In this document: piece by piece, positions 3,715-51,804 of the stretch
How the letters are laid out: every line of letters begins with the position of its first letter
How positions within the stretch are numbered: the first letter of the stretch is position 1
NCBI GenBank assembly: GCA_029204225.1
Contig: CM055113.1
Coordinates: 29,536,805-29,600,804, forward strand
Direction of reading: 5' to 3'
From: Diphasiastrum complanatum
Taxonomy: Eukaryota > Streptophyta > Lycopodiopsida > Lycopodiales > Lycopodiaceae
DNA: 64,000 nucleotides
The notes under the pieces: generated by a model
Database searches by the model: none
Told to the model about the DNA's origin: nothing
Seen by the model: only the letters and a program-made list of their open reading frames with translations
Translations under genes and position numbers: made by a program

Positions 3715-4415
3715 TGTGAAGAATTGCCAAAAATTGGCAAATCTAGCTTGATCAAAAACCATGTAGAATAGTGTAAATTGTGTACACAAGTGGGTCCCAC
3801 ACATGTGAGGCCATGATGCCACATGGGAAACCCATCCTAATGTAGGTTAGGTCAAGTCAAGAGAGTTGGTCATGTCTATTTGGTGGTCATCCCTACTTTA
3901 TAGGACCTACACCTAAGTTTAAGGTGAAAATTTGACCAACTAGATACCTACCAAGCATAACTCTAGGAAATAGACTAGGGTTTCATTTTAGGTCAAGGAG
4001 AGTGAGTTAACTTCCTTATTACATGCTGGAAATCCACCTAACTTCAAGAAGGAAGTCGAATTTGCTATGTATTCCCTCTCTCCATAGTGAGAAGATAGAA
4101 AATTTTTGGAGCTCATTGGCAATCTCAAGCTAGTTCACTATGTACATTGAGTTTTTGTGATCCAAATGAGACCAAATCAATTTCTACTTGTTTCTCAGGT
4201 TGAAGGCCGTACTACAGCCTGTAGTACACACGTGTGGTCTCTGATTTCAATGTTTATCAATGCTTTTGATTGTTAGTGCTTGTTGTTTGTCAAATTGCCA
4301 ATCTAGATCAACTTTTTTGTGTCTAGTTTTTTGATAGATTGTTAAGCAAGCATCCAATCACTCTTGTGGATCTTTTGTAGATCCATTTATGGTCCTAAAG
4401 TACAGTACTTTCACA
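3715..4415 (+). repeat. 3' LTR of family-1 copia
   Basis: It begins TGTGAAGAATTG and ends TTTCACA. From 3754 onward it matches window positions 1-662. A CACACGTGTG palindrome sits at about 4227-4236. Confidence 0.88.
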
Positions 4416-4416
4416 C

Positions 4417-4915
4417 ATCTCAACAATTAGAGGAGGAGGAAACGAGAAAGAAATATCATAAGCATTGCAAACATCACAAACGAAGTGATGTGCCGAATTT
4501 CGATTCTTATATTGATTTTGAGTTGTCCATTTCTAGCGACTCAAGCTCCGACTCTTCATCTTTTGAAAACGTTAAAAAAAAACTAGGAAGCATAAAAATA
4601 AGGATGAAGATAGGGAAAAAAACACCTATTTGGAATGATGAAGGGGTCACTACAGAGTTTCAACAAGAGAAAATACAAATTTGCAAAAATTGTAATCAGG
4701 AAGGACATTATTTTAAATATGAATGTCCAAATGGCCACGATATTGTCATCTGTAATATGTATAATCACTAGACTAATGATTGTAGAATTTTACAGGATGC
4801 ACACACTGCAAGAGCATTCGCAATACAGATGCAGTAGCAACAGCAACCACAACCACAATTACAACAGTCACAACGACATGTATTTTGTGCTCCCAAATTC
4901 ATAAAATGGAGCAGC
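4417..4915 (+). pseudogene. Ty3/gypsy-type gag C-terminal remnant
   Basis: An open frame to 4771 encodes a lysine/histidine-rich stretch, a serine-aspartate-rich acidic stretch and a zinc-knuckle-like segment CKNCNQEGHYFKYEC. The spacing is CX2CX4HX5C, one residue longer than a normal knuckle, so it is either degraded or shifted. A glutamine-rich segment and CAPKFIKW follow to about 4915 in another frame. The knuckle and glutamine-rich tail suggest a gypsy gag end. A gypsy protease piece on the same strand at 12276 could be the continuation, with the DNA transposon inserted between them. It directly abuts the family-1 LTR. Confidence 0.5.
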
Positions 4916-5103
4916 ATTTGATATATAAATGTATATTTTTCTATGAATTCTATACATGCATTTTTTTTCTATGCTATCTATATTTGTTCTGATCTTAATT
5001 TAGTATAACTACATCATCCTTTGCACCATCATCAATAAGGCTGAAGCCTTGCCGTAGCCAGTATACTTAGGATGATTTCTTGTCTAAATCTGTACACCTG
5101 GCT

Positions 5104-6741
5104 TTATGTGTACTTAGAAAGTGTAAACTGCAAAATAGAACATTCATGTATTAGTAATGGCTAAAAACATCAACAAAATAGAAAACTAATCATGATTTCA
5201 AAATAAGAATAAACAGAATTTATTACCTTAGAAATATCAACATCTTGTTGAAAGTTGAACCACTCAAAAAATAGCTTTGCATTGTATAATGTGTACCAAC
5301 CACAGCTGAATGAATCATTTTGCTGGGGGTGACTGCAAAATAATTCAACACACAAGAAATCAATTATGAAACAGAATGAATTAGAATGAAACAATTACAT
5401 TAGAATACTGATTTCAAAATGCTATTAAGAAAGACAGGATTTACCTCCAAACTGACGATCTGCCAATCCACGGAATGGGGAACATCTGTAGGAATATATT
5501 TACTTAGATATGGAAGATATATATCTACATCCTTATGTGTATTTCTCGTCAAATTCATCTTGATACAAAAGCCTTTAATACTATTATTTACAGATCTCTT
5601 AATAGATATCAGGTTTAAACTCCAGTGGCCACTGCAAAATAAGATTGAAAGTTCTTTAGCGGCAATTCTGAGAACTAATTAAATTGACAATGCCAATGTT
5701 AATGCATAAAACAGCAAGAAGCATTTAATATATCCTACTTGGTATGATAAGGGATGAGTAGATACTTTGTTGCTGTCCACTTGTCAGACACTGTGACAAT
5801 GTGTCATTATTCTCCTTGAAGGCTTGAAGCAAAAAGTTACTCAGCACCAGCAACTCATTGGATGAACCTCTTGCAATGTCATATTGCAAGAGTGTCAGCC
5901 CAGACTCTATCACAGAATCATTGATAGAAGCTCGTCTGTCTTTGAGATCCAAGCAATCTAGAACTCTAAAATTAATACTAAAATCAAGTTCATCTAGTCT
6001 AAAACAAAAAGGAGTACCAATTGTATTTATGGCATCAGATATGTCTTTCTCAAATTTAAGATAATCATCCGAATCTATATATGTATAAAAATTTGGAGGA
6101 AGAGGAGGAGGTGGATGTGTAGTATCTACAATAATTAAAGGGGTATCCAAAACAAATGTAGCTATATTTACAACATTATCAACAACAACGTTATCTACAA
6201 TTGATTTTGGGTTAGGTTTCATAGAATCTGTGGTGTCTACCCTCTTTACTTTCTTTGGAGCTCTCTTGGGGGCTGTCTGCTTCCTAGGATGCTTCGTAGG
6301 AAGATCAGTCCTATCTAGAGGAGTTGGTCTGGGAGCAGCAGGCTGAGATACGTGTAACCTGCAAAACCTCTCCCTCATTCTCATCAAGAGCTGAAAATCC
6401 TTGGGAATTATGGTAACTCTCTTGGAATGGATGGCAAGCAAAAATGAATCTTCAAAAAAAAGACTAAGGTAATCTTCAGCAGCCCACTGAAGGCACTGAA
6501 GAGCACTGAATGTAAATCTGACCAACTTTTCGAGATCATTTCTTGTTATGTTTCGGACAGCATGGTAGAATGGAGCTCTTGGGATCAACAGAGCAGTTGA
6601 TCTCTGATACTTGCATATCTCAGAGAGCCACCTGTTGCAATTGCGCATTCTAGATCTAGCAGGAGGTGAAATGGCAACCGCAGGGGCTGAGGATGAGCCA
6701 GGAGAGAAGAAGTCCCTCCTTGTCTGCTTTCTCCTATCCAT
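5104..6741 (-). pseudogene. Histone H3/CENH3-like domain fused to Ulp1 (C48) SUMO protease, four exons
   Basis: The ATG at 6739-6741 opens a 334-codon first exon (6741-5739). Residues 1-9 (MDRRKQTRR) resemble the H3 tail start. Residues 41-126 are an H3 histone fold: EICKYQRSTALLIP, VRNIT, WAAEDYL, FFEDS, AIHSKRVTIIPKDFQLL. The LLIP-APF, VR-IT and AAEDYL features, and a loop 1 one residue longer than canonical H3, resemble plant CENH3 (recalled, not aligned). A basic nuclear-signal-like stretch (150-167) and a proline run follow. INDSVIESGLTLLQ (273-286) opens a Ulp1 domain. Exon 2 (5631-5445) has GHWSL with the catalytic His-Trp, but MNL where an Asp-Ser-Leu is expected. Exon 3 (5332-5227) has HPQQNDSFSCG with catalytic Gln and Cys. 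Exon 4 (5127-5104) ends FTLSKYT. Exon lengths 1003+187+106+24 make 440 codons, but the GHWSL frame of exon 2 is offset from the flanking exons, suggesting two compensating indels. I infer Ulp1-type SUMO/ubiquitin-like protease activity in the ancestor. Confidence 0.8.
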
Positions 6742-7568
6742 GGATGTGTACTATGCAATAGCGGACTTGTGCATGACGACGAGGATGAGCAGGGAAGGAT
6801 GATAAAGATCTCGCAGAGGACCGATATGTATGGACAGAATGTACGGTATGTCGGACCTGTGCGAGTTGAATATATGAAAGAGCGATTAGTTTTGAAGAAA
6901 GACGCACAAGTATGATACGGGGGGACACGTAGGCAGATGTATCGGACCTGTGCGCATGGAAGGCGGTAGGTGGAATTTCGATTGTGAAGGACGCGCACAA
7001 GTGCGATATGCGGAGCAAAAAAAAAAAAGTGAAAAAAATTCATCGAAGTTTGTGATTTTATATCGCGGTAGGAAAGAACGTCCTGTCACACGTGTGGGAG
7101 TTGTACGGACAAATGAGAGAGCAACATGTGTCACCCTATCACTTTACACATGTGGGATTTGTATGACCAAATGCGAGAGCGACACGTGTTGTCGAGCAAA
7201 TGAATGAACACATTACACATGTCCAGGTGTCATTTCACATGTGTCCAGATGTCACCTCACATGTACCAGTGCCTGTAGTCGAATCGAAAGTAGACACATG
7301 TCCATTGACCATTGACCACACATGCAAAAAGTTAGTATAAATGTCATAAAAACCAATTAATTTTTTTACCTTTTTCATTATCGAAATTTGCGGCATATCG
7401 CTCTTGTGCGCACGCATTGTTGTCCGTTTGCTTTCAACGACACCTATTTGCACACAAGTGCGATATTCGATATCTGCCTGCCATACATATCCCTCTTGTG
7501 CGCCATCTTGATAGTTAGTTTTGTTTCTGTGCTCCCTCGCGCACAAGTGCGATATTCACTTTACTTCC
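6742..7568. promoter_or_regulatory. Divergent intergenic region with inverted and direct repeats of GCGCACAAGTGCGATAT
   Basis: This is the shared upstream region of the histone/Ulp1 gene (left, minus) and the unknown gene (right, plus). Matches to GCGCACAAGTGCGATAT occur in both orientations near 6759, 6852, 6901, 6946, 6993, 7393, 7450, 7488 and 7538. The segments 6991-7013 and 7391-7413 are near-perfect reverse complements. Between about 7087 and 7266 lies a cluster of CACACGTGTG, ACATGTG, CACGTG and CACATGT motifs of G-box/E-box type. Several overlapping reading frames cross the region on both strands, but they are only by-products of the repeats. Its position suggests a bidirectional promoter, and the repeat array could also bind transposase. 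Confidence 0.65.
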
Positions 7569-9139
7569 ATGGCCTCTTCCTCAAGATCCTCATGAGATTC
7601 AGGCTTGAGTTCATTTCTTAGTGAATTTGGGATTACTGAAAACCTAGACTACTTCCACAGCCTATTCAGGCCATATTCACATATTTTCAGGACTGCACGA
7701 CCAAATTCTGACGTTTTTTATGAACATTATGTTAGATTTAGAGATATACTTAGTAAGCATGTTTTCTCCATAGGTTCACTCCAGTACATGCATTATACTA
7801 ATCTTGTTCATTTCTTCCCAGCTTTCAGACATAGACTGGATAGAATGTTTACCAAATTGTTTGATCTTTTCAGAAGCAGTTCATTGTGTCCTTATTGCAA
7901 CAAGAAATGTCGATCGGTTGAATATCATAGTGGTTTCATACTTTTCATGTTAGTTCAGATCCCAGATGATGAGGAAGTTTCTGTTGGTGACTCTCCTTTT
8001 GCATCATCCTCTGTTCAGTCAGCTATTAAAGATATCAGTCACTTTTTTATCGACACTTTTGATAAGGAAAGTGACTTTATTGATGTAAATACTGATTCTC
8101 TATTGTATTCTTTTATTGGCCAAAATACATCTGCTGATGAATCCAACCCTATAGAGGAGTCTAAATGTCTATTCAATTTGCCTATATATTATATTAATGA
8201 CGATGTATATTTTACTATTGCTGATTTATGTAAAAATTTTTACTATTGTAAAGACGAGGTTCTATGTTTATTATCCGCCACAATTTCCAAATTCTCCGAC
8301 TTTGTAGATTTTGAAACAGATGACCTTGTTGCTGGTATTGATTTTGATGATGAGGAGGGACTTATGACCGGTGAAGAATGCCTGACTAAGACTTTATTAA
8401 ATATAGCTGAGGATGGGCGAGGCAGACCATCCGATGAAGAATTCATGGCATTTCAATCCCAGATGGGCTTCCCTCATCCATCATTATTGCATTTCACTGA
8501 TGATTCCACTTCAGTACATGGTCATTATATTGATCATCCTGATCCGGTTGCTGCTGATGGTGAAGAATGTGTAAGTGTTTAAACTTCCTTGCATTAGAAT
8601 GTTCTTAATCACTGAATGTATTAAAAATTTTTTAATCATTTAAAGTATTAGAATGTTTTTAATCACTGAATGTTTTATTGCTAACATATTTCCTATTGCA
8701 GGATGCTCTCATAATAGATGATTTTGCTGCGAGACCAGGTGGTTTCAGACAACATGCAGTGTCGTTCCAGAGGGATAGTGGACTTGGCCACTATCTTAGG
8801 CATCTCCTGAAGAATGAGATCTGCATTGCTCATTCCAAGCTAAGCCCAGTCGGGGAGAGTCTTATAATGGCAATTAAAGCTTTATCATTTTACCTAGGAG
8901 GACATAAATTTGTAAAGACAAATAAGATCATTTTTGTCAAAAGATCTTATGTTTTGAACATTTTAGGCTTTACTGATGGGAATGTTCCTTTAAGGAGCTC
9001 CCATTATTCATTGTATTCCACTTATATTGAGCTTAGTGGAAATAAGGATAATGCACATCTATTAGATGCATACGCTAGCAGAGAATTTCTTCATGACAAT
9101 ACTGCCATAGAATCTGACACAAGATCTGATGATGAATAG
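7569..9139 (+). pseudogene. Unknown two-exon transposon gene (about 480 codons), premature stop at codon 9
   Basis: I do not recognise a family. The likely start is the ATG at 7569 in good context (CTTCCATGGCC). It reads MASSSRSS and then meets an in-frame TGA at 7593-7595, possibly from CGA. The frame is then open to the intron at 8571-8701 (GTAAGT...TTGCAG), which joins in phase, and on to the stop at 9137-9139. Visible features are an aromatic-rich N-terminal third, a CPYC-X3-C-X5-H group that could bind zinc (about residue 107), an acidic centre and a moderately hydrophobic C-terminal 145 residues starting DALIIDDFAARPGGF. A decayed homologue at 36318-37440 has its own ATG at the equivalent place. 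It is divergent from the histone/Ulp1 gene and convergent with the transposase, with its 3' end 134 bp from the transposase stop. Confidence 0.7.
8571..8701 (+). other. Intron of the unknown transposon gene
   Basis: The donor is GTAAGTGTTT after GEEC, and the acceptor is CCTATTGCAG before DALIIDDF. Exon 1 from 7569 holds exactly 334 codons, so the frame continues unbroken. The homologue at 37.2 kb also has GTAAGTTC and a TTTCAG at the matching place, so the intron is conserved. Confidence 0.85.
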
Positions 9140-9273
9140 TTGATACTTTGTGTTTTGGTATAATACAATCAATACATTTACATTGAGTATTTCTCCTTCC
9201 TTGTTCAATGAATTTGCAAAGAAATTCTGAACATGTCATGATTTGATGACAATGATGATCTTCTACTCAACAA

Positions 9274-11705
9274 TCATCTAACTTTCTCTTCCTGTATGAA
9301 CTTGCATGCTTTTCTAAACTTGTTGTATTGTGTGGACTTTGTTATATGTCGAATCTGAACTCTGCGGTAGAACCACTGAAACAATTGACAAATGTAGTTT
9401 CGTTTTTCATTGGTTCCTCCATGTTGTGTATTTCAATGAAATGTTGCTCGTGCTTGCCAATGTGACTTCTCCATCCCTTGTGATGACCATACACTCAAGC
9501 TTCCATATGTATTTGCAAAAAATGTTGTATGATCTCTTAGGATGTGCTGCATATGTCAAAATCATAATGTTAGCCTTATGTTTGGATCTAAATATATATG
9601 AAAATTTGAAAGCATTTTGAAAATTTTATACTAACCATGTAATGAGTGATGTGATCTTCTCCCCATGCTTTTGATACTGCATTAACAAACTCAACACAAG
9701 TCCTTTGGACAGCCTTCTTATCAATATCAGAGTATTTTTCTTTTCTTAAAATAGCAATCATACTATCAAGCTTTTTCCATACATCAACTTTTAGTACTTT
9801 GGTTTTGTCGTCTTTCTCGAAGTCTTGAGTGGCAGCAATAATATTTGTCTAGACTGAGTGTTGAATATTAGAAGCCTTACCAGTATGATTTGATAGGAAA
9901 CGACGTGCTTTTTCTCCTCCTATGCTTGGCTTAGTTGGCATGTTCCCATTCTTTCCTGAAAGCTTTTCATCTTTTTATATTTTGACATGTCCTTTATGGA
10001 GTCCTGCTTTTGATAAAACATCTTCTAATCGAGAGATAGCTTCCTTTGCTAATGATGCTGACTTAGTATTCCAAGCAAAAACTACATGAAGATAAATGAT
10101 CTTTTCTATTAATCTAACTTTTGCATGAAGAGTGCAAACATGCACATTTTTTAAGGGGATAGACAACACAGGCTTCCAGTTTGGATCTGCATATTCTCTA
10201 GTAATTCATATACTCCTAGTTACATCTTTTGCCATTTTCATGCAATACAAACAAGGGGGTTTTGATATAGCACCGTGAGAGACATTATACATACATTTCA
10301 ATGTTTTCAAATCACCTGCTAAGTGCCATTCAACATTGAAGTCTCCAACTCCTGGAACATTGAGAAGTCCTCCATCCATATGGTCTTGGATGATCCTAGG
10401 ATAAGATGTCCTTGAGAATATCCATGATAATATATCATGATCCTCTTTTAGCACCTGTCCAAAGAATTAATCAGACTTAGTTTACAATGTATTGATACTA
10501 TTCAATGAATGTAATGTAATAATGAGGCTAGTTACCTGAAACGCTGCCAACCACCATATATCATTTTCCAGCTGGACACTGAATCTGAAATCTTCTTGGT
10601 TCTCTGTTTGTGATAGAGCATCATTCATGAGAGTTATACTAACCCTCTCCATCTTCTGCCCTTTCAAAATTTCTGACTCATCTAACTTAAGTACTATGAT
10701 TATTTTGCCATTCACCTTTTCATAGGTTATATCATAGAATGTCACGATGTATCTCAGCAAGTAATTTAGATCAACAAATAAATTGTTTGATGCATTATAG
10801 AATGTCGATCTTCCATCATTTCCATACACCTCCTCAATATGAAATGGAGTTCCAGTGATCTTATGCATACCTATGTTTAATGTATCCCTCTCTTTCTTCA
10901 AGTGATATGTCCTAGGGATTGGGACTTCTCTAATTTGAACTTGCTTAAAAGCTTCTCTAATTAGTTTAAATATTGGTGCATATGCTTCCCTGCTAATACC
11001 TGCAAAATCATAAGCACCCTGAACTATAGTCTTATCTAAAATTTTTTGAATGTCCACCATCAAAGACTCTGCTATTTTACACTTTACATTTGAAATCCTA
11101 TTGTTCGTCATGATACGCTCAGTGGATTTGCAAGTCAATATTGTGCCCAATGACATTCCTAGTGAAGCATTGTCTTTAATATTCCGAGGAGCTACTAATG
11201 CAGATTTGCAAAAAAAACAGATAGTTAACAGAATATCACCATAGCTGAAATTAAATCCAAATGTCATTGAAAAACTTACAAAAATCAGAATATGCTTACT
11301 TGAATGCACGAATCCTTCTATTTTGATAACCTCTTTTTGAAAGCATTTGAATATCCTTGCAACTTTGTCACTTTCGCTTCATCCATGTAACTAAATGAGT
11401 TATTGAAGAGAATGTGGGATGTGTCAAAGTGCTTGGATCTTGTGGATATAATGTTCCATCTATCCACAAATCCAAGTTTTTTTTACCTTCTACCTTGTAA
11501 CGAGAACGATCCTTAGCAGATATTCGAATTCCTTTGCCTCCTCTTCTCTGCAAAGGTGCCAAATCAATAGGAATATCCACATGTAGATGATACAATGTCA
11601 TCATCAAAAAAATAGTAGAGTAATCAGTTGCATCGAAGTACTGTGACTAGATTCTATGAAGCAAAGAAAAGTACTCATCTTTGATTATATTATATACTAT
11701 GTATG
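9274..11705 (-). pseudogene. DDE-type transposase, four exons, several in-frame stops
   Basis: Exons on the minus strand are about 11705-11300, 11244-10536, 10454-9636 and 9546-9274. Introns of 55, 81 and 89 bp have GT-AG ends and keep phase. Landmarks in order: WIDGTLYPQDP (exon A); KCKIAESL and PRTYHLKKE, then IIIVLKLDESEILKG with a candidate first catalytic Asp (exon B); EWHLAGDLKTLK with a candidate second Asp, PCLYCMK zinc-type Cys pair, CTLHAKVRLIEKI, and AWGEDHITHYM (exon C); HILRDH, YGSLSVWSSQGMEKSH with a candidate catalytic Glu, and QLFQWFYRRV (exon D). This order matches the RNase H-fold transposases of large eukaryotic DNA transposons; I could not assign a named superfamily. In-frame stops lie at 11368-11370, 10206-10208, 9975-9977, 9849-9851 and 9433-9435, with another further upstream near 11655, so the copy is dead. 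Confidence 0.78.
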
Positions 11706-12275
11706 ATCAATCCAATCTCCATGCTTTTATGCTTGATTCAAATTTGGAAATGCCGCTCATTTTTTCATTCCAATAGGTAGTTGGCGCTCATATTTCCATT
11801 CCAAAGTGATGATGGCGTTCATAATTGGAGATGGCACCCATATTTCCATTCTTGTGGAAGGAATGCATATGTAAACATTTTGCAATTTTTCCTGATTCGA
11901 ATTTGGGGATGGCAGTCATATTCTAGATCTAGTGAAAATATTGCTCTTTTCGTAACCAATGGAGGGAATATTTTTGAAATTAGTCAAGTTATATTGCAAG
12001 CTGTTAACAGTTCTTAATTGTGACTATAGACACTCGTCATAAGGATAAACAAAAAGCAGTAAGGTAGGATATGCTGAGTGAAGATTTAGGACCAAGCACG
12101 AGCCACATGTCCAACATTGATGTGGGTCGGTCATATGGCTACGATTACGTAGGAGGCACTGCACCAATTACAGTAGAATTAGGGGCCCAACTCTTCTCAT
12201 GAATTGGTTGATATTGTAGCTGATTAGATTGTTGATTTTATTAGCAATCATAAGTTACAGTTTACAGTGGGATAG
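11706..12275. other. Non-coding stretch upstream of the transposase
   Basis: No gene is seen. Between about 11750 and 11860 the phrase GGCGCTCATATTTCCATTCC recurs in degraded form three times (near 11784, 11815 and 11834), as if a short subterminal or promoter repeat. The right end of the DNA transposon should lie here or just beyond, but no inverted repeat to the 4.9-5.1 kb side was found by eye. Confidence 0.4.
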
Positions 12276-12745
12276 TTGATCCAGATTGTGCCTTATTTGG
12301 TGGATTTAAAATGCTCTAAGTTACATGGATATCAACAACCTACAAGATTACCTTTAGTGCCGGTCAATACTATTGTACAATCAACAGAACATAATATTGT
12401 TCCGACATTAAAAATCAAAATCCAAGATCTTAACATTGTGGGTGTACAGATTTATGGTGGGGCAAGTGTGAAGATCATTTTTTGAGAAAACATATCGTAA
12501 ACTAAAAAGTATGCATTTGCAAAAAAAAAAAGTCTACTCGTCATACGAATGGCTAATCATACACATGATTCTCCAGTAGGAGAAATTTGTAAGGTTCTGA
12601 TGTACATTAAAGGATTAAAGTTTTTATTGACTTTTGTAGTTATGAGATATGACTGGAGCTGATGCGTATCTCATACTTTTGGAAAGACCCTAGTTGATAG
12701 CTGCATAAGTCGTGCATGATTGGGCGACGAGATTGTCATGTGCCA
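12276..12745 (+). pseudogene. Ty3/gypsy aspartic-protease remnant
   Basis: The frame 12276-12485 ends with LKIKIQDLNIVGVQIYGGAS, which fits the retropepsin context where an Asp-Gly/Ser-Gly triad is expected; here Tyr replaces the Asp, so the site is dead. Further on (about 12655-12745, with stops) GADAYLILLERP and VHDWATRL fit the segment after the protease in gypsy polyproteins. It is on the same strand as the gag-like piece at 4417-4915. Confidence 0.5.
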
Positions 12746-12924
12746 AATCCAAAAATAATAGCACTTACAATGAAGTAAAGCTAATAGCAAGAAAAGTACA
12801 AGACCATCATGATAGCAATATTATCCATAGAAAGCTAGAAACATGGAGAACTGTTAAAATTTTGTTAGGATCTACTGTAGTATGAAGATCACATCAATCA
12901 ATCACCATAGACACTCCTAAAAAG

Positions 12925-13182
12925 CTCTCAAAGCATATGAGAACGGGGTGATGATCATATTGACACACTCAGATTTAACTCTTACCAGAGTTAACACTAT
13001 GTCGCTGCAGGAAGATAATCGAAGAAGTCACGATGCTTCGTCGACTTCATCATCTCAACCTCTATATGTCAACAAAGAAGCTCTAAGCAATCTGCCTCAA
13101 ATCAGAAACCGACTTAAAGTCAAGAACAATGATCAAATCCACAATTGAAAAAGAAGATGTTTAGTAAGTATTGCAAGTGCAC
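12925..13182 (+). pseudogene. Family-7 copia gag fragment
   Basis: The segment matches, in opposite orientation, the gag region at about 33190-33480. Shared text includes LQEDNRRS, LYVNK and the run up to the first zinc-knuckle cysteines. The match stops abruptly at TTGCAAGTGCA where the LTR at 13183 begins, so a family-4 element was inserted into this gag. Confidence 0.7.
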
Positions 13183-34218: not shown

Positions 34219-35584
<1,366 letters not shown>

Positions 35585-35965
35585 TTAGGGTTAGGTTATG
35601 AAAAGTACAGAGATGCTATAAATATGTGATGAGATCTCCATCAACTTATGAGTAAAAAATTGGTTTTCAATCTACCAATGTTGTTGGTGATCTAGATGTT
35701 TGATATTTGCTATTTTTGTTAAGTAATTTGACTTTGTGAGATTGATTTGGAACTTCAGGTGCTGTACTCTTACCTATGGCAGTCTGTATTTTCACACGTG
35801 TGAAGGGATTTGCATGAATTTGAGCCTACAAGTGGAGTTCAAGCCAAGGGGAAGCTAGGAAACACTAAAATGGTTGGTGTTTTAGCTATAGGATCTCAAT
35901 TGGACCATTCAAGGTGCTTCCTCCATCATTTCAAAGGTTTATTAGAGTCTATTTGTTGTATTTTT
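35585..35965 (+). repeat. Diverged family-2-like LTR fragment
   Basis: It shares with the family-2 LTRs a TATA-like CTATAAATATGTGATGA, then CAGTCTGTATTTTCACACGTGTGAAG, CATGAATTTGAGCC-like text and CCTCCATCATTTCAAAGGTTTTA, ending TTTTTAACA. It directly abuts transposase codons at 35966, so an LTR was inserted there, or a deletion joined them. Confidence 0.55.
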
Positions 35966-36233
35966 AACATATTCAATGTTTCTCATGGAGCTAATTCAAA
36001 GCACTTTTGTCTATATTGCATGAAGACAACAAAAGACATGACAAGGAGTACATCAACTTGCCTACTCAAAGCAGAAGTTTGGAAGAAGCTTGACAACATG
36101 GTAAAATATTTAATAAAATATAAGTTTTCAAATACTGATGTGCAAATGTTACTGAAAGCAACCAGCGAATTTGTTGATGCAGTTTAGAGTGCATGGGGAG
36201 CAGATCACATAACACATTATATGGTAAGATTTT
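35966..36233 (+). pseudogene. Second copy of the DDE transposase (fragment)
   Basis: FNVSHGANSKHFCLYCMKTTKDMTRST matches exon C of the 9.3-11.7 kb transposase in two short blocks. About 150 codons are then missing before AEVWKKLDNMV, EFVDAV, a stop, and SAWGADHITHYM. A GTAAG donor follows HYM exactly as in the first copy, so the splice site is conserved between copies. The exon with the Glu (SQGMEKSH in copy 1) does not follow. Confidence 0.82.
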
Positions 36234-36317
36234 GAAGCAGTACACAATTCCATGATACTATAGTATAAAATTGATATTTGTTGTTTTTTAGAACCAATGT
36301 TATACATTTTGAGAGAA

Positions 36318-37440
36318 ATGTCTAGGTTTGAGACTAGCCATTTCTCCTTTGGAATTATTGATAATATTGACTATTTCACTTCTATCGTTTTTCCATTTCT
36401 TTTTGTTTTGCCGTTTGTCACCGAAGGGCCTAGACGTAGAGGCCTTTTCTAAGATTTATTTTAGATTCAAGTCTTCTCAGAATAAGGATATGATACACTA
36501 TCAGGACTTGATGAACATTGACATGAATAAATATAAAGCCAAGCTTGAGAGGATGTTTTACAAAGTTGCATGATGATTTGTCAACTTTTGTTTGTTATCT
36601 TTTGTTAAACATTGAGGATGATTCTAATAATGCTTCATCATCTACTTTCGAGGCCGGTTCATCAAGTAGTGTCAGAATTGAGAAGTCCAACCTGCTGATT
36701 TGGATTCATTTCTTCAAGATACAAATAAATAATGATGATTGTAAAAATTTTGACCCTATCGAAATAGGGCTTTATTTATAGGTCCTTAGTCTACTACATC
36801 TCTTCCCCCTCATTACAAAACTTTGATTACCCTCCCTACGTATAATGTCAATAATGATTCTTTTTTCACATTATCAAATATATAAGATCTTTTTTACTTC
36901 ACAGAGGCTGAAGCCCTTTGTATTTTGAGCACGGAATTAGATGATTTTCCTGATTTGAATGATTACGAGATTGATGATCTTCTCCCTGGAGTGGATGACC
37001 CAGTCAATGATCAATTTCTGTGAGGAAAAGATTGCTTGAAGATAGTCGTTGAGCAAGTGCATAGAAATGAAGCTGATCTTCCTAGTGAAGATGAGTTTCT
37101 TAGAATTCAAAATCAATTTGACTTTCCAGAGCCATCAATATATTCTCCAAGCTCTTCGACTTCGAGAGGAGGCCACAATGGACAGTCATAAATGAAGACA
37201 AAGGTGAATGCGTAAGTTCTTGTTTGAATTTTACTAGATAATATGTGATGCTAAAATTATGTATTTGAACTCACCTTTGTTTCGATTTCAGAAAACTCTT
37301 TATGTGGATGAGTTTGCAATTCGTCGAGGACACAGATCTTCCGGCCGGTTAATTTCTAAGAGATCATGCATTGGGTTATTATTTGAAGTCCTTCAAGAAT
37401 AATGAGATAAGTGGCATCACCTTCTCTACCTCTTTTGCAT
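36318..37440 (+). pseudogene. Second copy of the unknown transposon gene (decayed)
   Basis: It opens with ATG at 36318 (MSRFETSHFSFGIIDNIDYF), the counterpart of FLSEFGITENLDYFHS in the first copy. The match continues with frame changes: KAKLERMF, LLLNIEDDSN, EALCILSTELDDFPDLNDYEIDDLLPG, CLKIVVEQ and DLPSEDEFLRIQNQFDFPEPS. A donor GTAAGTTC near 37212, a TTTCAG acceptor near 37291 and exon 2 (VDEFAIRRG, then LGYYLKSFKNNEI) follow, and it ends by about 37440. The Cys cluster of the first copy is missing. Between copies the spacing of acidic and aromatic residues is kept. Confidence 0.8.
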
Positions 37441-47915: not shown

Positions 47916-48872
47916 ATGGCATCTATAAATGCATATCTTTTGGATACTAATGAAAGGCTCAACAAAACTAACTATTCCATATGGAAAGTTAGAATGGAAT
48001 CCATCATGATCATGCAAGATCTGATGGAAATTGTAAATGGTAAGGAGGGTGAACCTATTCATCCTCAAGAAAAAGCCAAATACATCAAGAGGTGCAATGT
48101 TGCACTACATTGCATAAAAATGAATGTTGCAAATGAACTCTTAAGAGAGGTAGGAGATTGCACTTCAGCTCAAGATGCTTGGGAGACTTTGCAAAAGTTC
48201 TATGAATCCAAGAACCAAACTAGAATGTTAGCTTTGAAGAATCAAATCTATAGAAGCTATCAAAAGAAAGGAGAGAGTGCACATACGTTTTTCCTAACAG
48301 TAAAGGAATTGAACAAAGAGCTAGCCTTTATAGGTGACCCTATCAAGGATGAAGAGCTTGTTCAACTCATATTGAATGGACTAAGCTTTGAGTTTGACAA
48401 TTTGGTTCAGGGATATGCAATTATGGGTAAGCTACCCATACTTGAAGAACTTCAAGGCACACTCATGGCCGAGGAATCAAGAAGGAGCCAAATGCAAGAG
48501 AGGATGGATAGGCTTTCCATCAAAGGTGGAGATGACCAAGCTCTCTTCACCAAAGGCAAAGGCAAGTCCAAAGGCAAAGGATCAACATTCAAGAAGTCTA
48601 CAAAGCTTGAGGATCAAGAAGGACCCTCAAAGGCATCTCCATCAACCACCAAAGTCAATAAGGACAAATCAAAGGTGAAGTGCTACTATTGTAGCAAGAT
48701 GGGGCATTATGCCTCGGAATGCTTCAAGAGGAAGCAAGATCAAAGCCAAGCCAACATGAGCAAAGAGGAGGAGGAGGAGGAGAGTTCACATGAGGACTCT
48801 CTCATGATGTCCATTTCTTCAACAAGCTTCAAAGGAGAAGATCCTTGGTGGATTGACTCGGGTGCTAGTTGA
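47916..48872 (+). CDS. gag: Gag plus protease start, family-2 copia
   Basis: ATG at 47916 gives MASINAYLLDTNERLNKTNY. The frame is open for 318 codons. It contains the copia gag domain (residues about 10-195; WKVRMES, ALHCIKMNVANELL, LVQLILNGL), a Lys/Gly-rich RNA-binding stretch, CCHC knuckle CYYCSKMGHYASEC (about 251-264) and protease motif WWIDSGAS at the C-terminus. Compared with the family-1 copy, about 27 codons directly after DSGAS are missing and the total loss is not a multiple of three, so translation stops here instead of entering pol. Start context and length fit related copies. Confidence 0.94.
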   Translation: MASINAYLLDTNERLNKTNYSIWKVRMESIMIMQDLMEIVNGKEGEPIHPQEKAKYIKRCNVALHCIKMNVANELLREVGDCTSAQDAWETLQKFYESKNQTRMLALKNQIYRSYQKKGESAHTFFLTVKELNKELAFIGDPIKDEELVQLILNGLSFEFDNLVQGYAIMGKLPILEELQGTLMAEESRRSQMQERMDRLSIKGGDDQALFTKGKGKSKGKGSTFKKSTKLEDQEGPSKASPSTTKVNKDKSKVKCYYCSKMGHYASECFKRKQDQSQANMSKEEEEEESSHEDSLMMSISSTSFKGEDPWWIDSGAS

Positions 48873-51804
48873 TGAAGCTTGTAAGATTGAAGGAGTTGGT
48901 AGAATTCCCCTTTGCTTAGGATCTTCCAAAAAGATCAACATAGAAGGTGTTTTGTACATTCCTACAATAACAAAGAATCTACTAAGTGTTGGCCAAATGG
49001 TAGACAATGGTTTCAATGTTGACTTTGCTTCAAATGAATGTTTCATCAAGAAGAAGGGTAAGATAGTGGCTAAGGGCACTAGACTTGGCAAACTTTATAA
49101 GTTGAATGCATTTGTGGATACTAATGTTGTCATGTTGGCCGAGAAAAGCAAGATATCTACCTTTACTTTATGGCACAAAAGACTTGGACATGTCAACTCG
49201 GGTTCCATGGAGGCTATGATCAAGAAGGAGTATGCTTTAGGCCTACCAAGGTCTATTGGGAAGGAAGACAAGGTTTGTGAAGCTTGTGCCTTATCCAAGG
49301 CACATAAGAAGGTGTTTCCTAACTCCATCACAAAGTCATCTCATCCTCTTGAACTCATACACTCAGATGTGCACATTGCTAGCACCAAATCTAATGGAGG
49401 TTCATCCATGTTTTTAACCTTCATTGATGACTACTCAAGATATTGTTGGGTGTTCTTACTTTCCTTCAAGTCTCAAGTATTTGATACTTTTGTGAAGTTC
49501 AAGTTGTTTGTGGAAAAGCATCATAATCATAGCATCAAGATTCTTAGAAGTGACAATGGTGGAGAATTCATCTCCAATGAGTTCAAGGCCTTTTGTGAGG
49601 AGGAAGGGATCAAGAAAGAGACTTCTTGTCCTTACAACCCTCAACAAAATGGAGTTGCTGAAAGAAGGAATAGAACATTATGTGATTGTTCTAAGGCTTT
49701 AAGATTAGATGCTTGTTTGTCCAGATCCTTTTGGGGTGAGTCTCTTGTATGTGCAAACTACTTGATGAATAGGGTGTCTTGCAAAGCAATTGAAGGCAAA
49801 ACTCCTTATGAGATGTTGTATGGAAAGAAACCCAATCTTAATCACTTGAAAGTTTTTGGGTGTATATGTTATGTGCATGTGCCATTGGAAACAAGAACCA
49901 AGGAGGATCCATCTTCCACAAGAGGGATCATGCTTGGATATGCAAGCTCAAGCAAGGGCTACAAAGTCTATCTCCCATCCTTGAACAAATTTGTTGTTTC
50001 AAGGGATGTCATCTTTGATGAACATCATATGCATATGCTTGAAGAAGGCTCAAGTGCTCCAACAATCAAGAAGAAGATGGCCGAGGAGCAAGATCTTGGT
50101 TTTGAGGAGGAGCTCATGGAGGAGCAAGCACCAAACCCACCTATCACACCAAGGAGATCTTCAAGGGCAAAAGTGGAGCCATCAAGGCTCACATATCAAG
50201 GCAAAGGACAGCAAGTTGAGGGTATCTCATCCACTTCTTATGCTTTATCTAGTTTTGAAGAACCGTCTAATGTTGAAGATGCATTCAACTCCAAAGAATG
50301 GTATAAAGCTATGTTGGATGAGTATGATGCCTTGATTGAGAATGAAACTTGGTTGCTTGTTGAGAGACCTCAAAGGAATGTAATAGGATGCAAGTGGGTC
50401 TTCAAGCTTAAGTTGAATGCAAATGGGAGTGTTAACAAACATAAAGCAAGATTAGTTGCAAAAGGTTATGCTCAAGAGAGAGGGATAGACTATGAGGAAA
50501 CTTTTGCACCCGTGGCCAAGATGGTCACAATAAGGCTAATCATTGCACTTGCATCACATTTTGGATGGATTCTATGTCAAATGGATGTCTCTAATGCTTT
50601 CTTGAATGGTTTTTTGGAAGAGGATATCTATATGGAGCAGCCACAAGGGTTCATCAAGCATGGAATGGAGAACAAAGTATGTCATCTCCAAAGAAGCATC
50701 TATGGCTTGAAGCAAGCCTCGAGATCTTGGAATTCAAGACTACATTGCTATCTTATTTCACTTTCTTTTGTTCAAAGTGAATATGATCCTACTCTTTACA
50801 TTAAGTTTGATGATGTTGGTATTGTACTTTTACTCATTTATGTAGATGACATCATCATTAGTGGAAATAGTGTTGATGGTATTGAAAAAATCAAGATAGA
50901 TCTATCCTTAGAGTTCAAGATGGTAGATCTAGGGTGTCTTCACTTCATCTTAGGCATCGAAGTACTTAGAGGGTCTGATTTTATCTTTATAAGTCAAGTA
51001 AACTATGCTCAAAGTCTTTTGAAGAAGTTTAAGATGGAAGTATGCAAAAGTGTTGACACACCAATGGAGCAAGATGTAAAAGTGCCAAATGAAGATGATG
51101 AAAGATCCTTCATGGACATCACTTTGTTTAGGCAACTTATAGGTTCCTTAATGTGGATCACTATAACTAGACCAGATCTTAGCTTTAGTGTATGTAGGTT
51201 GAGCCAATCCATGCAAAAGCCATTGAATATCCATTGGAAAAAGGCTAAGAGGATTCTAAGATACATCTCGGGTACATTGGATTTTGGGATTCTATATAGA
51301 GGAGATGTGATTAACCTTCATGCATTTAGTGATTCAGATTTTGCAAGGGACAAGAGGGATAGGAAATCAACAAGTGCCTATTCAACTTTCATAGGAGAAG
51401 GTGTGGTTTCATGGCTTTCAAAAAAGCAAGAAACTACATCTCTATCTTCAACCGAGGCCGAGTACAAAGCTTTGACAACCACTACAAAGGAGGTACTTTG
51501 GATCAAGAGATTATTGGTGGAACTAAAGATCATGGATTCAGAGGAGGCACCAATCATCTACAATGACAATATATCAGCCCAACACCTTGCATCTAACCCA
51601 ATCTTCCATGCAAGATCTAAGCACATTGAGATATGCCATCACTTTGTGAGAGAAATGGTGCAAGCCAAGGAGATTGCTTTGGAGCATGTTCCAAGCAATG
51701 AATGTGTAGCTGATATACTTACTAAACCACTTCAAAAGACACCTTTTATGAAGTTCAGATCATCACTTGGAGTGATTAGTAAAGCAATGATTGAACCAAG
51801 CTAG
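48868..51804 (+). pseudogene. pol: Pol of family-2 copia: integrase, RT, RNase H (frame-shifted from gag)
   Basis: A continuous frame of about 980 codons begins inside the gag end without its own convincing ATG. Order: protease tail (VLYIPTITKNLLSVG); integrase finger WHKRLGHVN...CEACALSKAHKK; integrase core with LIHSDVH, LRSDNGGEF and NPQQNGVAERRN, all three acidic residues present; then ITPRRSSRAKVEPSRL; RT with KARLVAKGYAQERGIDYEET, CQMDVSNAFLNG, YGLKQASRSW and LLLIYVDDIIISG; RNase H with AFSDSDFARDKRDRKS, LSSTEAEYKAL and DNISAQHLASNP. All catalytic residues I can check are intact, so only the upstream deletion separates it from a functional polyprotein. Confidence 0.93.

Follow-up and report, generated by a model that had tools for sequence, protein, structure and literature searches.

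Does a lycophyte transposon encode a protein in which a histone H3 fold is joined to a SUMO protease, and what might such a protein do for the element that carries it? The question is raised by one locus of Diphasiastrum complanatum, in a stretch of 64 kb that was analysed over its full length and is referred to here as the window. The original prediction placed a transposon-encoded gene of this kind at 5104..6741, with an H3-type fold, a basic linker and the start of a Ulp1 domain in one exon and the catalytic residues in the next ones, and suggested that the protein could enter nucleosomes, perhaps centromeric ones.

The histone-protease gene in the window and in its paralogues

The gene is read from the minus strand. 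ORF 5725-6750, with an ATG at 6741, contains all four motifs on which the H3 claim was based (KYQRST, VRNIT, AAEDYL, and SKRVTIIPKDF). A profile search matched its residues 19-123 to PDB histone H3 (E=6.2e-21), and Pfam Histone (PF00125) matched the ORF at E=5.7e-22; both are far above chance, and the H3-type fold is borne out. The fold is followed in the same frame by a linker that is basic by eye and then by INDSVIES, as predicted. Codons at the places expected for Ulp1 follow downstream, HW from 5627, QQ from 5325, and CG from 5304, in pieces separated by intron-like stretches. The parts of the gene are as follows.

5739..6741, minus strand: exon 1, encoding an H3-like tail, the H3 fold, the basic linker and the start of C48 (from the ORF; splice sites and a 7-bp deletion from paralogue alignment)
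6364..6630, minus strand: H3-type histone fold, residues 38-126 (from the PDB and Pfam matches above)
5445..5631, minus strand: exon 2, C48; the HW histidine has its codon from 5627, and where Asp usually stands there is an Asn with its codon from 5555 (paralogue alignment; His and Asn placed against Ulp1 by eye)
5227..5332, minus strand: exon 3, C48, QQNDSFSCG, with the Gln and the Cys (codon from 5304) (paralogue alignment)
4990..5127, minus strand: exon 4, encoding the C-terminal tail; its low end is approximate (paralogue alignment)

The places of HW, Gln, and Cys were thus predicted correctly, but the pieces do not join in frame in this copy. Alignment with paralogues shows that exon 1 is missing 7 bp near its 3' end, that exon 3 has one additional C directly after the acceptor, and that exon 4 contains a stop; exon 2 does not continue the frame of exon 1. 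The reading frame is open through the histone part and broken in the protease part, and exons 1-4 have no common frame. The upper limit given for the gene coincides with the ATG at 6741, but the lower one falls short, as the gene reaches about 4990.

Paralogues were collected from the window's own assembly (1.74 Gb). The H3 part gave 6,966 first-look candidates, and it is these, not scored copies, that the copy numbers in this text count. The best 150 were scored; their identity to the query is 81-100%, the window itself being among them. Twenty loci (L009-L028) were fetched from the other 149, mostly high-scoring and stop-free ones, so that the proportion of open copies is biased upward. In all, the loci read comprise these 20 of family A (the family of the window copy, taken from the best-scoring end) plus the window and L044, three of family B, and three of family C. 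The flanks of the window copy are common to L009 on both sides and to L010 on one side, and these two are therefore not independent insertions. L009 lies about 108 kb off on the same contig and matches window positions 3773-12933 at 99%, beyond the element on both sides, as expected of a duplicated segment.

Exons 1-4 join at GT-AG sites without an internal stop in six of the 20 loci (L020, L021, L022, L025, L026, and L027), the aligned stop codon being absent from L025. Because the exons of the window copy are broken and the joined exons are open in these six loci, the in-frame histone-protease fusion is, judged from sequence, a property of family A and not of the window copy. The spliced proteins of two loci, L021 and L026, were scanned against Pfam. 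L026 matched Histone at 1e-27 and Peptidase_C48 at 1.1e-10, and L021 matched them at 3.1e-24 and 1.3e-7, respectively. All four matches exceed the curated cut-offs; for Peptidase_C48, the two family A proteins score 32.1 and 42.2 bits where the cut-off is 20.7. In a search of PDB, the protease part of L026 found a Ulp1-like SUMO protease (E=0.00087) and yeast Ulp1 (E=0.0013). The claim of an H3 fold and a C48/Ulp1 domain in one protein therefore holds for these spliced proteins, including the match of exons 1-4 to a C48 profile.

His and Gln of the protease are present in all six open copies. Cys is present in four and lost in two (Phe in L020, Tyr in L027), and Asn stands at the place of Asp in families A and B, as read by eye. 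Four open copies (L021, L022, L025, and L026) retain His, Asn, Gln, and Cys together. An Asn at this place has a precedent in the related ASFV protease, which uses a His-Asn-Cys triad. The N-terminal tail of family A retains RRKQTRR. Among the six open copies, dN/dS is lowest in the H3 fold (0.18) and C48 (0.24), with 0.37 in the tail and 0.58 in the linker, over 15 pairs that are not independent; the ratio reflects past selection averaged across related pairs and is silent on the object of that selection. By this measure both the H3 and the C48 domain look constrained in family A.

The transposon that carries the gene

Comparison of the copies places the histone-protease gene in a very abundant DNA transposon of the cut-and-paste type, 8-9 kb long and with terminal inverted repeats (TIRs). 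The features of the element in the window, besides the exons listed above, are these.

4876..12034, no strand: family A transposon remnant (blastn against 20 paralogous loci; homology elsewhere extends to the TIRs)
6742..7568, no strand: region between the histone-protease gene and o1/o2, containing nine GCACAAGTGCGATAT-like sites at 6758-7555, some in each orientation (motif search)
7569..9139, plus strand: second element gene, o1/o2, exons about 7569-8570 and about 8702-9139 (two exons by eye; ORFs; early stop in the window copy)
9591..11640, minus strand: transposase-like gene of several exons, interrupted in the window copy (paralogue comparison)

The window copy has neither TIR. It also lacks, at 11380/11381 in the transposase-like gene, about 310-320 bp that are typical of most copies; the same stretch is absent from L009 and L010. 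The ends of the element were defined on other copies. One sharp right end is common to eight loci, and the left end pairs with it as TIRs of about 34 bp that start ATTAGAGGAGTTCTCAATATC. Both ends bound the unit in three copies (L021, L026+L031, and L028+L052), and the distance from TIR to TIR is 8,007 bp in L021 and 8,679 bp in the L026 copy. No target-site duplication longer than 2 bp was seen by eye in these three. Searches with the element ends gave 1,612 first-look candidates for the right end and 1,423 for the left. The best 40 of the 1,612 right-end candidates were scored and are 99-100% identical to the query, which fits recent movement. The many copies suggest that the element is successful in its host.

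Two further genes accompany the fusion. The o1/o2 gene is divergent from the histone-protease gene and contains, by eye, a CPYCNKKC cluster. Against Pfam, o1 gave only sub-threshold, chance-like matches (best 0.0073, and 0.056 in a second scan) and o2 gave no match; PADLOC returned nothing for o1. The o2 exon at 8702-9139 has at least 150 scored copies of 90-100% identity, mostly stop-free. This exon was also considered by eye as a second, H2B-like histone fold; the candidate was rejected, the best PDB profile match being E=0.28 and Pfam giving none. The transposase-like gene is convergent with o1/o2. Its motifs, read by eye, are LKLDES, GDLK...CLYC, a later LH, and a final E...HITHYM. We take this DDE with CxxC...H pattern to recall RAG1/Transib/CACTA transposases. 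The gene matched no Pfam model, whether MULE or RAG1/Transib/CACTA, and a PDB profile search with its exon D returned no transposase.

The three genes tend to occur together. Of the 20 family A loci drawn from the H3 list, 18 contain o2, 15 contain transposase exon C, and 14 contain transposase exon D. In L027, the family A copy is without exon C, which occurs there only in a diverged neighbour element. With TIRs and a transposase-like gene beside the fusion in many copies, the prediction of a transposon-encoded gene is upheld. The neighbour in L027 (L027:6851-9375) adjoins the family A copy; its transposase exons are 53% and 65% identical and its o2 is 44% identical.

The region between the two divergent genes contains an array of a 15-bp motif. 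With up to 3 mismatches, GCACAAGTGCGATAT has nine sites in the 64 kb window, all at 6758-7555; 1.21 sites are expected in the window, and nine were reached in none of 100 shuffles. Exact GCACAAGTGCGATAT occurs 1,745 times genome-wide, and the reversed control occurs 0 times. The first hundred listed genome-wide sites often come two or three together, at spacings that recur. A regular expression counted 3-6 sites per paralogue in eight paralogues, all but one in the matching region; these counts are lower bounds, since the same expression found four sites in the window and the search tool found nine. A search for a pattern of motif pairs gave one match and was uninformative.

Three element families and their relation to H3 and CENH3

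Three diverged families of elements carry a histone: A, to which the window copy belongs; B, with the fusion at least through exon 1; and C, with an H3 fold. Families B and C were reached with a CENH3-fold query, for which 150 matches were listed, 13 at the top with 59% identity and 137 with 45-56%. Two of the 13 top matches were read and are canonical H3; the other 137 look element-type, and seven of them were read (L044-L050), L044 being of family A. The host CENH3 was not seen among the listed matches, presumably because it is split by introns. Families A, B, and C score 77.1-97.3 bits with Pfam Histone, for which the cut-off is 26.4, and histone H3 gives the best PDB matches of family A.

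Family B was read at L046, L047, and L049. The protein starts with MARKKQTAR in L046 and MARTKQTAR in L047, while L049 has no open start. L046 aligns with exon 1 of family A over 336 residues (31% identity, E=2.6e-35) and also with exon 2 (E=1.2e-5), and its pieces downstream of exon 1 contain HW, Asn, QQ, and SCGW. Pfam on its exon 1 alone matched Histone (1.8e-21) and not C48. These alignments indicate that the diverged families A and B share the fusion, at least as far as exon 1 in B. Family B has at least 150 scored places of 77-100% identity. In family C (L045, L048, and L050), an N-terminus, proline-rich or of another kind, lies ahead of the H3 fold (Pfam Histone 9.5e-27 in L048) and the ORF ends at or near the fold; no C48 was found downstream in the three loci. 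In all three, a relative of o2 adjoins the H3 fold in convergent orientation. Family C has at least 150 scored places of 76-100% identity, and many listed copies are without stops.

To what extent does the element histone look able to work as a histone? In an alignment of 27 element sequences (21 of A, 3 of B, and 3 of C), none departs from H113, R116, V117, T118, D123, and L126; we take these positions to belong to loop 2 and the H3-H3' four-helix bundle. R83 is retained in 25 of 27. Some DNA-contact arginines vary in the 21 sequences of family A: Arg stands at R69 in 10 of them, at R72 in 15, and at R49 in none, and R63 is usually Pro, like the plant CENH3 references. Entry of the fusion protein into nucleosomes is plausible, since the bundle and loop 2 residues are unchanged throughout.

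The centromeric part of the original prediction fared less well. Some traits are CENH3-like: LLIP occurs in families A-C with a few exceptions, and in family B loop 1 is longer and RW is present. In a tree whose CENH3/CENP-A references are three only, the four H3 rows stand apart from the CENH3 and element rows in the best topology (90/89), A and B group together (94/89), and A, B, and C group together (78/87); joining the elements with H3 is not rejected (p-AU 0.055). The best identity of the element histone is to plant H3.1. Family A matches occur in all ten chromosome deciles (7, 7, 11, 3, 7, 20, 12, 11, 7, and 18), as tabulated by hand for 103 of the 150 matches, on 15 contigs of known length and from the best-scoring ones only. 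A dense cluster of family B was observed on contig C3, where 34 of the 43 listed matches fall within 18.4-21.8 Mb and a further 6 within 29.9-30.2 Mb; these copies mostly have a 171-aa open frame, and the cluster is possibly pericentromeric or a tandem amplification.

Candidate functions of the fusion

We propose, with a probability of roughly 0.45, that the fusion is an accessory chromatin and anti-silencing factor: incorporated into chromatin as a variant of H3, it would remove SUMO there. The mechanism would be as follows. The H3 fold would pair with host H4, and the host histone machinery would bring the fusion protein onto chromatin. The C48 protease would then cleave SUMO off silencing factors or histones near the element. 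Local loss of SUMO may open the chromatin and would keep copies of the element expressed and mobile. The o1/o2 protein may confer sequence specificity by way of the 15-bp motif array. Several findings argue against this anti-silencing reading: the Asn in place of Asp in the protease, the loss of Cys in two of the six open copies, the variable DNA-contact arginines, the lack of a Pfam C48 match in family B exon 1, and a family C in which no C48 was found. A broader proposal, tentative and at somewhat under even odds, is that these families form a transposon superfamily with H3 as its hallmark gene, joined to a SUMO protease in A and B, whose members would edit silencing from inside the nucleosome.

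Other readings account for part of the same evidence. The H3 fold might bind DNA or the transpososome and the protease might deSUMOylate the transposase or process element proteins, so that the fusion would serve transposition and leave silencing untouched. The company of the transposase-like gene in most loci read and the near-identity of the 40 scored right ends (best of 1,612) fit such a role; the unchanged nucleosomal residues of the H3-H3' bundle and loop 2 and the H3-like tail of family B would be needless in a plain DNA-binding module, and we consider this reading unlikely. Alternatively, the protein might be a decoy whose H3-like tail and fold tie up host H3 modifiers or chaperones and weaken silencing in that way, with a protease that is secondary or decayed. 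The family B starts, RRKQTRR in family A, and the histone of family C without a C48 found downstream speak for it, but the constraint on C48 in family A nearly matches that on the histone and L046 of family B retains the active-site residues; a decoy seems improbable to us.

A CENH3-like histone that steers the element or the protease to centromeric nucleosomes is less probable again. It would fit LLIP, RW and the longer loop 1 of family B, the best tree, and the cluster on C3, but it is at odds with the closest identity, which is to plant H3.1, with the unrejected joining to H3, and with the scatter of family A along the chromosomes, and we regard centromere targeting as unsupported; for family B, with its cluster on C3, a centromeric role is conceivable. 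That an H3 and a fragment of Ulp1 were captured from the host by chance and are passively carried is the least probable reading and is disfavoured. Plant transposons often capture gene pieces, according to the available text of PMC13317346; the presence of the fusion in two diverged families, the survival of open frames, and dN/dS well below 1 in both domains all run against it. If, as in the anti-silencing proposal, the fusion enters nucleosomes, a parasite would be writing itself into chromatin with a chromatin-editing tool that it may bring along. The role of SUMO in transposon silencing would then become testable, and the protein would be a natural design for delivering an enzyme to nucleosomes.

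Comparison with known systems and the rest of the window

The separate parts of the fusion have known counterparts. The element histone shares with canonical H3 and CENH3/CENP-A the H3 fold and the residues of the H3-H3' interface and, in family B, an H3-like tail. It differs from canonical H3 in being about half identical, in its fusion to C48 in A and B, and in being encoded by multicopy transposons. With Ulp1/SENP (C48) proteases the fusion shares HW, the PQQ...CG motif, and the match to Pfam Peptidase_C48; unlike them, it has Asn for the catalytic Asp (by eye) and a histone fold at its N-terminus. Selfish elements with a histone of their own are known among viruses, for example Marseillevirus and the polydnavirus H4; to our knowledge, these virus-encoded histones carry no joined SUMO protease. 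Searches for a viral origin of the element proteins found no match in phage records, and in IMG/VR no stretch matched by the o2 and H3-C48 queries was confirmed as a relative. NCBIfam gave an archaeal histone only (E=0.096). In the open-access literature searched, no transposon-encoded core histone and no histone-SUMO protease fusion was found, and a survey of fusions between transposon and host domains (PMC12062965) names no histone fold in its available text.

The closest parallel in the manner of working is the VANC protein of plant MULEs in its form with a Ulp1 domain, called KIU, which belongs to VANDAL elements of Arabidopsis and its relatives; the function of the Ulp1 domain in KIU is described as unknown in the available text (PMC13317346). 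Both systems have a transposon-encoded accessory protein with a Ulp1 domain, and both have short motifs repeated in the non-coding DNA of the element, the targets of VANC often forming tandem repeats (PMC5735166). For KIU, the available text names no histone fold (PMC13317346), whereas the fusion has one. VANDAL elements are non-TIR MULEs; family A has TIRs of about 34 bp and a transposase-like gene without a Pfam match. By analogy, the fusion may therefore resemble KIU/VANC in its working and not in membership, as neither a MULE transposase nor non-TIR ends was found in family A.

Apart from the main copy, the 64 kb window gave no histone match. At 35927-37420 on the plus strand are fragments of a diverged relative of the element, with a transposase exon and o1/o2 pieces at 31-64% identity. 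The window also contains a long (GA)n run at about 34780-34910 and, at 47916-51804 on the plus strand, long ORFs that by eye are those of a Copia-type LTR retrotransposon.
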